This document shows positions 44,412 to 50,984 of a stretch of DNA of 64,000 nucleotides, piece after piece. The position numbers were made by a program, and so were the translations under genes. Origin of the DNA: Armatimonadota bacterium (GTDB lineage Bacteria; Armatimonadota; Fimbriimonadia; Fimbriimonadales; Fimbriimonadaceae); the NCBI GenBank assembly GCA_016789105.1, contig JAEURN010000006.1, forward strand, positions 62,001 through 126,000. The letters run 5' to 3'. Position 1 is the first letter of the stretch, and the number at the start of each line of letters is the position of its first letter. Below the pieces are notes generated by a model, which was not told where the DNA came from, did not search any database, and saw nothing but the letters and a program-made list of their open reading frames with translations.

Positions 44412-45554
44412 ATGATGTCCAAGACCCGAATACTACGCATTGCGCCCCTCCTTTGCATCGTGGCCCTCATGGCCGGATGTGGAGGGAATGGGAGCGATAC
44501 CCCTCCGGCTGGAGGCGGCACTTCTGATTACACAGCCGAGATCGCCTTAGGCGGGACAGAGAGTGCCACCCTGACCGTTTCGGTGAGCGGCAACACCGCC
44601 ACCGGGACGCTTGTCAAAGATTCAACCCGCGGGTTCCCACCGGTTCCCGATGGAACGACGCAACTCAGCGGCACGTTCACCGCCCCCTCGACTTTCCACT
44701 TGACGGGCAGCCTGACCGGCGGGGTTCCGATTGAACTCGATGGCACGTTGCCGGGGGATCAGACGGCCGGTAGTTACCAACTCAAATCTGGATCAGACAC
44801 GCTGACCGGAGGGTTCTTGCCCAAAAAGTTCCCAAAGCCGGCCATCGCGTGGGATCGCCAGACGCTCTCGTTTGAACCCGGGCAAGGCGGAGGGAACTCC
44901 CTCATAAAGACGAACTTCCCGACCGGTGGGACAATCAGTTACCGCTATTTCATCGCGGCGCCGGCAGCCTATGTGCGGAACTCGGCAACTCCCCCTGTCA
45001 CGGGGCAAGACATCGAGATTTCTGACGACCAGGTTTATGTCCAAACCAGCGCGGCCGATTCCGGCAAGCTCAAAACTTATTGCCAGGCCTATTTCACGAA
45101 AGATGGTGTCCGGACTTTCCTCGCTCAGGCCTACTTCACGGTCGACTTGGTCGATGTCCAATTCGTCCCGGCCACCTGGTTCGAAGAAATCGGGACAAAC
45201 CCGCAAGGGAACATCGACTACCACTCATACGGCTGGGATATTCCGCTAGTGGCCGATGCCAAGGAGTATGTCGTTAGCCACTTGAACTACCTGAACGGCT
45301 CCGAACTCCTCCGATACCGGATTCATGCTGGGGATATCGACGCAACGGCCAACACTACCACTCCGATCTTTTTCGGGGCGTTCCCGCACAGTTTCCCGCC
45401 GGTTATCCCGGTTTCCGAAGAACTCTCGGGGTCAGCCCACACCCAGTTCTTCCGTCGGGGCAACTCGATGCGGATGCTGATCGTGGTCACGGATCCCGGG
45501 CTTGAGGGCCCCTATCGGGATCACAACCCGATTTCGGTCAAGGTCTACAAATAA
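44412..45554 (+). CDS. Lipoprotein, unknown
   Basis: The 380-residue product has a signal peptide with lipobox (MAGC, residues about 20-23), then a Gly-rich linker and beta-rich domains: residues about 35-120 resemble a lipocalin-like or Ig-like fold with TLTVSVSGNTATGTLVKDS, and the remainder has mixed beta strands (DLVDVQFVPATWFEEIG, YVVSHLNYLNGSELLRYRI). No domain recognised. GGCGGAGACC before the ATG serves as ribosome site; Met 2 (44415) is equally possible. Confidence 0.75.
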   Translation: MMSKTRILRIAPLLCIVALMAGCGGNGSDTPPAGGGTSDYTAEIALGGTESATLTVSVSGNTATGTLVKDSTRGFPPVPDGTTQLSGTFTAPSTFHLTGSLTGGVPIELDGTLPGDQTAGSYQLKSGSDTLTGGFLPKKFPKPAIAWDRQTLSFEPGQGGGNSLIKTNFPTGGTISYRYFIAAPAAYVRNSATPPVTGQDIEISDDQVYVQTSAADSGKLKTYCQAYFTKDGVRTFLAQAYFTVDLVDVQFVPATWFEEIGTNPQGNIDYHSYGWDIPLVADAKEYVVSHLNYLNGSELLRYRIHAGDIDATANTTTPIFFGAFPHSFPPVIPVSEELSGSAHTQFFRRGNSMRMLIVVTDPGLEGPYRDHNPISVKVYK

Positions 45555-45557
45555 CGA

Positions 45558-45968
45558 TTAAGCCAAGGGATCCGGAGTCGCTTCGACCCGGATCCCGATT
45601 GTAGAAATCACATTGGCCGCATCTTGGCAGGCCGATTCGGAATCGCGGTGGACGACCGAAGAACCCAGGTTGTCAATCTCCCAGGTTTCGATGGCTGCCT
45701 CTTCCGCATCGCAGCCTGTGGCAACCATCAAGATGGAGATCACTTCCAAATGGGTGTTGGTGTCGTTGTCGTAAACCGTGACGATCCAACCCTTTTCTTT
45801 TTGGGTCGACGATTCTGAAAGGAGGCCGGGATCTGCTACCGTCGCCCCGCCGTTCCAAATTGGGCATTCCACAACCGCGACATGGGAGACTGTCCCGGCA
45901 AACCGGTCGAGGGCAGAGACGCCGTACCCTGGCCTGCTTTTGGGCCCACGAGTGGTCAATCGTCCCAT
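45558..45968 (-). CDS. ClpS-like adaptor paralogue, divergent
   Basis: The 136-residue reading begins at ATG 45968, inside the end of the upstream clpS gene, with a GAGG ribosome site 6 bases before it; a GTG at 45872 would give a 104-residue protein. The ClpS domain is at about residues 60-130: KGWIVTVYDNDTNTHLEVISILMVATGCDAEEAAIETWEIDNLG. The residues that hold an N-terminal degron in ClpS are the Asn-Asp pair and a His; here DND is kept, but the His of the 'VH' helix reads Asp (EIDNLG), so N-degron binding may be lost or altered. No clpA is near. Confidence 0.7.
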   Translation of the reverse strand: MGRLTTRGPKSRPGYGVSALDRFAGTVSHVAVVECPIWNGGATVADPGLLSESSTQKEKGWIVTVYDNDTNTHLEVISILMVATGCDAEEAAIETWEIDNLGSSVVHRDSESACQDAANVISTIGIRVEATPDPLA

Positions 45969-46243
45969 TCCAACCTCACTTCGGCCTCCACGCCAGCCGT
46001 CCTGATGATCCGGGCGGCTCGCTCGCACATCTCCCGCGTATCAAAATGGACGTCGGCCTTTCCGAACGTGTGGGCCTCCCACATTTCGATGTAGGCCTCT
46101 TCCGCACTGCACCCGGTTGCGCGCATGAGGATTGAAACCACCGTGTCCATCGTCGTGTGGTCGTTGTTGAATATGGTCGTCCGGTACCGTTTCGTCTGAC
46201 TCAACGAATCGGGTTGACGGGTTGTCAGGGGACTGCTACTCAT
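45956..46243 (-). CDS. clpS: ClpS-family adaptor
   Basis: The 95-residue protein is a ClpS domain with NND in place of NDD (YRTTIFNNDHTTMDTVVSILMRATGCSAEEAYIEMWEAHTFGKADV), and keeps the His in EAHTFG equivalent to the degron-contacting His. In characterised bacteria ClpS hands N-degron proteins to ClpAP. The start overlaps the stop of the YfhO-like gene (ATGA) and its own 3' end overlaps the next ClpS-like gene, so all three are coupled. No clpA/clpC in view. Confidence 0.85.
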   Translation of the reverse strand: MSSSPLTTRQPDSLSQTKRYRTTIFNNDHTTMDTVVSILMRATGCSAEEAYIEMWEAHTFGKADVHFDTREMCERAARIIRTAGVEAEVRLEWDD

Positions 46244-48594: not shown

Positions 48595-48942
48595 TCAACC
48601 GCAGTAGGCGATCTGCTGCTTTGCTTTTTCGTGCCCTGGTTCCTGCCGCAAGACTTCGTGGAAATGCGCGCAGGCCTCCTCATCCATGCCGAGCATCATT
48701 TGGGTCATGCCCAAATCGTATCGTGCATTAACGTGGTTCGGATGCTTGTCGACGATTTCTTGGAGGGTTGCCATGCTCCCGTCAAAGTCGCCCTCGAACC
48801 CTTGGATCAAACCCAATTGCCATTTGGAATCAGCATGGTCGGGCTCTTGCGACAAGATCTGTTCAAACAGCATCTTCGCGTACCCGTATTTGCCATCGCA
48901 ACGGGCCTGAAAGGCCTGCTCGTAGAGTTCGTCCACGCTCAT
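48595..48942 (-). CDS. Short TPR protein
   Basis: The 115-residue protein has about three TPR units: LYEQAFQARCDGKYGYAKMLFEQILSQEPDH, WQLGLIQGFEGDFDGSMATLQEIVDKHPNH and YDLGMTQMMLGMDEEACAHFHEVLRQEPGH. No signal peptide, so likely cytoplasmic. A -10-like TATAGT lies about 19 bases upstream of the ATG. It stands between ftsH and the YfhO-like gene, 15 bases from the latter. Confidence 0.8.
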   Translation of the reverse strand: MSVDELYEQAFQARCDGKYGYAKMLFEQILSQEPDHADSKWQLGLIQGFEGDFDGSMATLQEIVDKHPNHVNARYDLGMTQMMLGMDEEACAHFHEVLRQEPGHEKAKQQIAYCG

Positions 48943-49013: not shown

Positions 49014-50984
49014 TCAAGCGGTTCCCGGCTCAAGTTTTCCAGGAGGGACAGAATCAGTCTGCTTGCTTCCCGGTTCGACCGGCGGCAGGGGCGGGGCCCC
49101 GTCGCTCAGCTTGAGTTCCAACGGCGGGAGTTCCTCGCCCCGGAGCACCGCCAAGAATTCTTCGCGGTCTAAAGTCTCCCGTTCCAGCAGGGCCGAGGCG
49201 ATAGCGTCCAGCTTGGCGCGGTTCTCTTCAATGATCTGCCGGGCGCGTTGGCGGCATTGGTCGACGATGTGGCGAACCTCTTCGTCGATTTGGCGGGCCA
49301 ATTCTTCGCTGTAATCCCGGTCGGACTGGATTTCCCGGCCCAAGAAGGGGTTGCTGACGTTGCGGCCGATGGCCAACGTCCCAAGCTTCTCGCTCATTCC
49401 AAAGCGCGTAACCATGGCCCGCGCAATCCGGGTGACCCGCTCCAGGTCGTTGCTCGCCCCGGTCCATCGTTCGCCAAAGACGATTTCTTCCGCCAGGAGC
49501 CCGGCCAAAAGCACGCTGATGTCTTCGTAAAGTTCTTGCCTGGACGTGTGGTAGCTATCGGTTTCCGGGAGTTGCCATGTCGAGCCAAGCGACATGCCCC
49601 GCGGGAGGATGGTGACTTTGTGAACGGGGTCGGAATGCTCCAAAAGTTCGCCAACAAGGGCGTGTCCAGCTTCGTGGTAGGCGGTGATCTTCCGCTCTTC
49701 CTCGTTCATGACGCGGCTCTTGCGGGCCGGCCCGCCAATCACGCGATCCAGCGCTTCTTCCAAATCGTTCTCGGAGATTTTGGTGTGGTTGCGCCGGGCG
49801 GCTAGCAGGGCGGCTTCGTTAAGCGTGTTGGCCAGGTCGGCACCGGTGAAGCCCGGGCTGCGTCGGGCAAGGTTCTTGAGATCCACGTCGGCGGCAAGCG
49901 GCTTGCCTTTGGCGTGGATCTTCAAGATCGCCAGGCGGCCTTCCATGTCCGGCGCATCAACCATGATCTTGCGGTCAAAACGGCCGGGCCGCAAGAGGGC
50001 CTCATCCAACACGTCGGCCCGGTTGGTGGCGGCAATCACAACGACCCCAGAGTTCGTCTCGAACCCGTCCATCTCAACCAAGAGTTGGTTCAACGTTTGT
50101 TCGCGCTCGTCGTTACCGCCTCCAACACCCGTGCCGCGTTGGCGGCCGACGGCGTCGATTTCATCGACAAACACCAGGCAGGGCCGGTGGGCCTTGGCGG
50201 TTTCAAACAGGTCGCGGACGCGGGCGGCACCAACCCCCACGAACATTTCGACGAACTCAGAACCGGAGATGTGGAAGAACGGGACGCCCGCTTCGCCCGC
50301 AATGGCCCGGGCCAGGTGGGTTTTCCCAACCCCCGGAGGGCCCACCAACAAGACGCCCTTCGGGATTTTCGCCCCGAGCGAAACATATTTCTTCGTGCTC
50401 TTCAGGAATTCGACGACTTCAAACAGCTCTTCTTTGGCTTCGTCGATGCCGGCAACGTCTTCAAACGTGACTTTTGGGGTGTTTTCCCCGGCCCGTCGCG
50501 CCCGGGATCTTCCAAAGCTCATGGCTTGGTTGCCACTCTGCTGGGCTTGACGGCTAATCCACCAGATTACGAACCCGCCCAACAACAGGGTTGGCAGCAG
50601 GAGCCCCAGCAGGCCCGCGAGCTGCGTGCCGATCGGTGCCGGCGTGATCTTGTAGTCGATTTTGTTGGCGTCCAGGAAGTTCGAAAGCTGCGCACCAGAC
50701 GGAGACTCGGAAGGGTAGGCCCGGACAATGAACTTGCTCCCCGATTTGTAGTCTCCCTTGATCGTGTCCACTTGCCATTCCACCGGGCTCTTGATTTGCC
50801 CGGCGGCAATCTCAGTCTTCAAAGTCCCGACGGAAATCTCTTTGGGCGGGGCAAAACCCAGCGCGGAATTGGATGACAGTAGATTCAAAACGGCGATCAC
50901 GGCCAAAAACGCGATCGCAACGAGAATGAAGTATCGGGATCCTTTCAAATCTTCTCCTGGCGGTTTGCCGCCTTCACCTGTCAT
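49014..50984 (-). CDS. ftsH: ATP-dependent zinc metalloprotease FtsH
   Basis: The 656-residue membrane AAA protease degrades misfolded membrane and short-lived proteins. Segments: an N-terminal anchor (about residues 18-36) and a second (about 120-142), a periplasmic part between them, Walker A GPPGVGKT (215-222), Walker B VFVDEIDA (271-278), second region of homology with RPGRFDR and the zinc site HEAGH (437-441). Length and domain order are normal. It lies 47 bases downstream of tilS on the same strand, a classic bacterial pair, and upstream of the TPR and ClpS-like genes. Confidence 0.98.

Follow-up and report, generated by a model that had tools for sequence, protein, structure and literature searches.

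A tandem pair of ClpS-fold proteins kept across Fimbriimonadia, with pockets predicted to differ in N-degron recognition

Two overlapping genes of a Fimbriimonadaceae bacterium encode ClpS-fold proteins and probably form a co-translated pair of ClpS-type adaptors which have different N-degron pockets and are predicted to feed a ClpC-ClpP protease. Bacteria read N-terminal degradation signals through ClpS, in which His66 (positions are in E. coli numbering unless stated otherwise) is usually taken as part of the clamp for the amino group. The window, meaning the whole stretch of 64,000 nucleotides analysed (contig JAEURN010000006.1, positions 62,001 to 126,000), carries the two genes head to tail on the minus strand. 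An earlier note on this DNA, made from the letters alone, had proposed a duplication leaving one canonical adaptor and one altered in cargo preference through loss of the histidine. The two overlapping reading frames it described are present, both products exceed the Pfam cut-off for ClpS and both are modelled as ClpS folds. Its motifs are also confirmed, the Asn-Asn-Asp and the histidine of the first gene lying in FNNDHTTM and WEAHTFG and the Asp-Asn-Asp and Glu-Ile-Asp of the second in YDNDTNTH and WEIDNLG. The features are collected in Table 1; ClpS1 and ClpS2 are the window's examples of copy 1 and copy 2.

Table 1. Features of the ClpS pair and its gene string, in positions of the window.
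Feature	Position	Strand	Basis
ClpS1 (copy 1), 95 aa, ClpS-domain protein	45956..46243	minus	ORF; Pfam ClpS; AlphaFold
ClpS2 (copy 2), 136 aa, N-terminal extension and ClpS domain	45558..45968	minus	ORF from ATG at 45968
End of ClpS1 and start of ClpS2, 13-base overlap, probable translational coupling	45956..45968	minus	ORFs; start position in relatives
ClpS1 Asn-Asn-Asp, equivalent to E. coli 34-36	46160..46168	minus	Sequence and alignment to E. coli ClpS
ClpS1 EAHTFG, His at E. coli His66 position	46061..46078	minus	Sequence and alignment
ClpS2 Asp-Asn-Asp, equivalent to E. coli 34-36	45762..45770	minus	Sequence and alignment
ClpS2 Glu-Ile-Asp, Asp at E. coli His66 position	45672..45680	minus	Sequence and alignment
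Large membrane-type protein, 779 aa	46240..48579	minus	ORF; conserved upstream neighbour of pair
Small TPR protein, same gene string	48595..48942	minus	Pfam TPR; neighbour family F2 in 16 loci
FtsH-type membrane protease, same gene string	49014..50984	minus	Pfam Peptidase_M41 and AAA; neighbour family F3 in 10 loci

Both ClpS1 and ClpS2 are ClpS-fold proteins. Against Pfam ClpS (PF02617, curated cut-off 23 bits) ClpS1 scored 54.6 bits (E 9.7e-15) and ClpS2 26.7 bits (E 4.9e-6), and these are exactly the ClpS genes that exceed the cut-off in the whole genome of 2.75 Mb in 11 contigs. The NCBIfam equivalog models for ClpS, whose cut-offs lie between 86 and 159 bits among those listed, gave at best 33.2 bits for ClpS1 against a cut-off of 149 and no match for ClpS2. 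AlphaFold models were confident (mean pLDDT 89.5 for ClpS1 and about 97 for the domain of ClpS2), and the best match to a solved structure was for both the Arabidopsis AtClpS1-peptide structure, with Z of 15.4 for ClpS1 and 14.9 for ClpS2 at an rmsd of 1.2 over 78 aligned residues. Yeast Ubr1 came lower, with Z of 10.6 for ClpS2 and 10.1 for ClpS1.

The start of ClpS2 at 45968, with an extension of about 60 residues, had been offered provisionally in the earlier note. Of the 78 pairs, 70 have an in-frame start in the interval from -16 to +4 bases around the stop of copy 1, versus 88 of 312 control windows, which were of the same kind but placed inside copy 1, and for this reason both the start at 45968 and coupled translation are credible. 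The eight pairs lacking a start in that interval are L066, L032, L050, L053, L051, L075, L054 and L023. The extension ahead of the ClpS2 domain comprises some 57-60 residues and is of low confidence in the AlphaFold model, thus it is probably disordered. Copy-2 extensions are usually short except in the window's genus, where most members have a long one. Upstream, the stop of the 779-aa membrane-type protein overlaps the ClpS1 start by 4 bases. This protein has no Pfam match at 0.01, and its family stands directly upstream of the pair in 59 of 78 cases. The conserved gene order may reflect a functional tie of the pair to the membrane protein or to FtsH. On the other side a 380-aa reading frame with a lipoprotein-like start (44412-45554; no Pfam match at 0.01) converges on the pair.

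The tandem pair is an old arrangement kept across Fimbriimonadia. The search for tandem ClpS genes in relatives which had been suggested at the outset covered 94 loci (the window and 93 of relatives), of which 78 have two ClpS domains, in the same order and on the same strand in every case, and 16 have one. In the class a ClpS match was found in 100 of 113 genomes and most of family f1 had two; five f1 genomes gave no ClpS match (G011, G013, G038, G049 and G050, completeness 68-94%). Copy 2 is present in nearly all near-complete Fimbriimonadaceae genomes. A profile search found 80 named loci, comprising 63 pairs, 16 single copies and one locus broken into three pieces. The 16 single copies are of the copy-2 type with no second ClpS in the fetched flanks, and those with a class label are all Chthonomonadia. 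Families f12 and f13 have the copy-2 type alone, with an ordinary ClpS on another contig in ten genomes among those examined, while copy 1 is alone in G044, G068 and G069 and copy 2 is alone in G014. The named relatives place the pair-bearing group in Fimbriimonadaceae/Fimbriimonadia, Armatimonadota, and some pair-bearing assemblies are labelled Chthonomonas at NCBI or just Armatimonadetes. One contig labelled as a Methanoregulaceae archaeon (L148) holds a typical Fimbriimonadaceae-like pair and is probably mislabelled or from a mixed assembly. The copy-2 profile A1 was built from 63 of 78 rows and the copy-1 profile A2 from 64 of 78, and A3 contained 18 of 63 copy-1 rows. For the structure jobs L148 and L166, which has a broken frame, were left out of the rows of both copies and L170 was also left out of those of copy 1.

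The duplication proposed in the earlier note is real and it is ancient, both copies having been conserved. In a tree of 172 domains the 78 copy-2 domains and one lone copy form a single clade (SH-aLRT 99), and this clade has its own invariant pocket residues. A tree of 88 rows places copies 1 and 2 together, apart from ordinary Armatimonadota and canonical ClpS, with SH-aLRT of 99.5. ClpS trees have about 84 columns and resolve little. In the 88-row set a tree that groups copy 1 with the ordinary and canonical types also survived testing (p-AU 0.636), although the quick search used there missed better trees, and any placing of the root between the copies is provisional. Two other origins were considered. 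A recent local duplication is rejected by the spread of the pair through relatives and by the copy-2 clade. Descent of copy 1 from ordinary Armatimonadota ClpS, with copy 2 coming from elsewhere, is disfavoured by the free tree, which joins the two copies, but not rejected, the p-AU value just given applying to this alternative.

The pockets were compared in an alignment of 36 ordinary Armatimonadota ClpS, 88 copy-1 and 103 copy-2 rows, grouped by motif and by place in the 172-domain tree, with the lone L008, L016, L056 and L080 counted as copy 1. In the Caulobacter complex the peptide amino group touches Asn47, Asp49 and His79, according to PMC12493166, and by a count made here these correspond to positions 34, 36 and 66. 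In the window this triad reads Asn34, Asp36, His66 in ClpS1 and Asp34, Asp36, Asp66 in ClpS2. Ordinary Armatimonadota ClpS have Asp35 in 29 of 36 rows, His38 in all 36 and His66 in 32. Copy 1 has Asn35, His66 and an Asp or Glu at position 36 each in 77 of 88 rows. In copy 2 Asn35, Asn38 and Val43 are invariant (103/103), as is the choice of Ile or Val at 65; position 34 is Asn in 60 rows and Asp in 43, position 36 is acidic in 93, position 40 is Tyr in 59 and position 66 is Asp in 73 and His in 30. Within the tandem pairs copy 2 has Asp66 in 60 of 78 and His66 in 18, and copy 1 is without His66 in 10 of 78. Sixteen columns of copy 2 are invariant over 63 sequences spanning the class. The alignment thus read, copy 1 keeps the Asn34/Asp36/His66 triad but has lost Asp35, and copy 2 is changed at 66 and often at 34. 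The description of the first gene as canonical does not hold, given the Asn in place of Asp35 in most copy-1 rows. Nor can a lost histidine serve as the mark of specialisation, for 18 of the 78 tandem copy-2 genes and 30 of the 103 in the wider set retain it, an outcome which the earlier note had itself named as refuting its view. As judged from these rows, what sets copy 2 apart is its invariant Asn35 and Asn38, not the missing His. Cysteines absent from E. coli ClpS were observed at positions 53 and 81, in 87/88 and 88/88 copy-1 rows respectively and in 103/103 copy-2 rows each. The ordinary Armatimonadota ClpS (L251-L279 and others) have His38 together with Cys81 in 36/36, and Asp66 in 4/36.

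Positions 34 and 66 of copy 2 do not vary independently. Among 108 different copy-2-type rows the combinations are N34/D66 in 56, D34/H66 in 27, D34/D66 in 20 and N34/H66 in only 5. A model with dependent sites was better than independence, with likelihood-ratio p values of 2.5e-4 and 4.5e-4 on two trees and 6e-6 to 3.5e-4 on ten resampled trees; these are one-site models on short, poorly resolved trees built without columns 34 and 66. A treekit sign test on well-supported branches had one usable pair only. The changes at 34 and 66 suggest a need to retain an acid close to the amine. A loss of amine binding is not supported, given this co-variation and the nearly constant presence of an acid. 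Equating loss of His with loss of function was likewise rejected as the default, since position 66 alternates between Asp and His in copy 2 while the pocket positions stay fixed. The copy-2 pocket looks remodelled, not broken. Copy 1 does not keep an extra acid, which counts against the preferred explanation.

The absence of ClpA from view, as remarked in the earlier note, is true of the window, and the candidate partners lie elsewhere in the genome. Contig C10 carries a ClpC-type ATPase (835 aa, two Clp_N repeats), C3 a ClpB-type ATPase and C4 a single ClpP; the names ClpC and ClpB are presumptive, being assigned from length and domain order. Four Clp_N matches occur in the genome, the three listed falling in the ClpC and ClpB genes, which are the Clp ATPases identified, and no ClpA was found in it. 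Clp_N is present in all 41 genomes searched. The window's pair does not adjoin clpC; in E. coli clpS is ahead of clpA. In one relative (G041) a third ClpS (L080 2963-3286) lies 25 bases upstream of clpC (454-2937) on the same strand, besides the tandem pair, and this third gene falls on a long branch in the copy-1 group of the tree. In the neighbour clusters of stand-alone copy-2 genes, judged by eye, no recurring family was recognised as Clp. At L004 (G108) a proteobacteria-like ClpS, possibly acquired, is followed by a Clp ATPase reading frame, and Aat is also present in that genome.

Aat is the leucyl/phenylalanyl-transferase which makes N-degrons, and the window's genome encodes it on C10 (E 4.4e-50). 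In the phylum it occurs in 123 of 160 genomes with a copy-1 profile match versus 9 of 131 without, and in the class, where adjacency was checked in part only, two ClpS matches go with Aat in 76 of 84 genomes, versus 9 of the 29 genomes lacking two; these counts are inflated by relatedness and the association is partly shared ancestry. Many genomes of families f6-f11 also have Aat, and the copy-1 profile matches there are mainly the ordinary ClpS type. Aat was therefore rejected as a marker of copy 2, as it follows any ClpS. The small genomes G068 and G069 (1.5 Mb; loci L008 and L016) have copy 1 only and are without Aat. Aat is not required for the pair, since G065, G066, G059 and G060 have both copies without it.

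Compared with the ClpS of E. coli and Caulobacter, the two copies share the fold, with Z of 11.5 to 13.9 for at least 74 residues, and a low-confidence, probably disordered N-terminal extension, and copy 1 shares Asn34, the acid at 36 and His66. Both copies differ in having Asn for Asp35, no Lys84 and invariant Cys at 53 and 81, and copy 2 differs further in Asn38 and in Asp or His at 66. The E. coli and Caulobacter proteins are adaptors for ClpA, whereas the genome here has ClpC and no ClpA and the pair is not beside an ATPase gene. Glu79, Glu82 and Lys84 are given as the contacts of E. coli ClpS to the ClpA N-domain in PMC12493166. The window has Glu, Glu, Ala at these positions in ClpS1 and Ser, Gln, Ala in ClpS2; in each copy generally, the place of Lys84 is taken by a small or aliphatic side chain. 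With Lys84 lost in both and Glu79 and Glu82 lost in the window's ClpS2, the contact with ClpC must differ.

Organisms with two ClpS proteins are known. PMC12493166 describes a Leptospira interrogans ClpS1 in which Asp stands for the His and Tyr for Met40, next to a canonical second copy, and its authors call the pockets distinct. Two adaptors per genome, His versus Asp at 66 and the Tyr40 of most copy 2 are thus common to both systems, but the Leptospira clpS genes are unlinked, clpS2 is beside clpA and the altered copy has Asp31, which by a count made here is position 35 and is Asn in copy 2. The altered His is therefore not new as such. Synechococcus ClpS1 and ClpS2 have affinity for different N-terminal residues, as reported in PMC7966870, and two ClpC adaptors with different N-terminal preference are also what is predicted for the present pair. 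The ClpS-like (type-2) domain of eukaryotic UBR1 and UBR2 has Asp at the His66 position and Cys at 53 and 81. It also has Asp35 and His38, where copy 2 has Asn at both (103/103), so that of these three residues only Asp66 is in common; His38 is instead shared with ordinary Armatimonadota ClpS, and unlike UBR1 and UBR2 the pair has no E3 ligase. In the PDB both family profiles, A2 for copy 1 and A1 for copy 2, matched the UBR1/UBR2 ClpS-like domains best by sequence, ahead of every bacterial ClpS, and A1 found no bacterial ClpS there at E 0.01 or better. A search of a UBR2 fragment against plasmids gave six matches, all with E of about 4 or more and none usable. In the open-licence literature no description of the tandem Armatimonadota pair was found, and none of a phylum-wide ClpS family in coupled tandem with position 66 toggling alongside 34.

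The preferred explanation is that ClpS1 and ClpS2 are made together and both hand substrates to the ClpC-ClpP protease. Each copy would bind a destabilising N-terminal residue by its free amino group and its side chain. For copy 1 the amine site would be like Asn34/Asp36/His66, and for copy 2 it would be a rebuilt one to which an acid at either 34 or 66 contributes. The side-chain pocket of copy 2 is predicted to be changed as well, with Tyr or Phe at 33, Asn38, a mostly aromatic residue at 40 and Ile or Val at 65, and the two copies may therefore differ in the N-terminal residues that they favour. In both, the unstructured N-terminal extension may enter the ClpC pore in the way that the E. 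coli extension docks in the pore of ClpA (PMC9663308). A division of labour between the copies is plausible. A bolder form, tentative and on present evidence doubtful, is that copy 2 acts in these bacteria as a receptor for N-degrons in which the Asn/His of the amino clamp has given way to an acid that can sit at either 34 or 66, with Asp66 as in UBR1 and UBR2, and that the Armatimonadota two-ClpS system reads N-terminal residues other than those of the classical L/F/W/Y code.

Several other accounts of copy 2 have to be weighed against this. It is unlikely to be a regulator which vies with copy 1 for binding to the ClpC N-domain, or diverts ClpC from other substrates, with a pocket that no longer serves N-degrons. 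Cyanobacterial ClpS2 is reported to block the degradation of casein by ClpCP3/R (PMC6274998), which would fit such a role, as would the missing His66 in 60 of 78 pairs and the greater departure of copy 2 from Pfam ClpS. Yet cyanobacterial ClpS2 itself shows affinity for L, F, Y, V and I at the N-terminus (PMC7966870), the ClpA-contact positions are kept less and not better in the window's copy 2, and the amine-site positions are among its most conserved, with 34 and 66 co-varying. If the site were dead its pocket would be expected to drift, and the invariance of Asn35, Asn38 and Val43 (103/103) therefore argues that the copy-2 pocket is not dead. A start close to the end of copy 1 in 70 of the 78 pairs, together with an order and strand the same in all 78, would suit a single unit in which coupled translation gives equal amounts of a hetero-pair that jointly delivers one or two substrates to the ClpC ring. 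This is improbable, recalling that the copy-2 type is alone in 16 of the 80 named loci and in G014 and copy 1 is alone in G044, G068 and G069, so that each can be kept without the other. A weak Pfam score and two altered pocket residues might suggest that copy 2 is a decaying duplicate with no present function. Its 16 invariant columns and its presence in nearly all near-complete Fimbriimonadaceae genomes make this the least probable account by far and, as far as conservation of sequence can speak, refute it as a general one.

A large natural family in which position 66 toggles between His and Asp alongside 34 offers a direct way to ask what the amino-group clamp requires. The question extends to eukaryotes, whose UBR type-2 domain has Asp at the same place. 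The pair itself lets one ask whether two adaptors divide the N-degron code.
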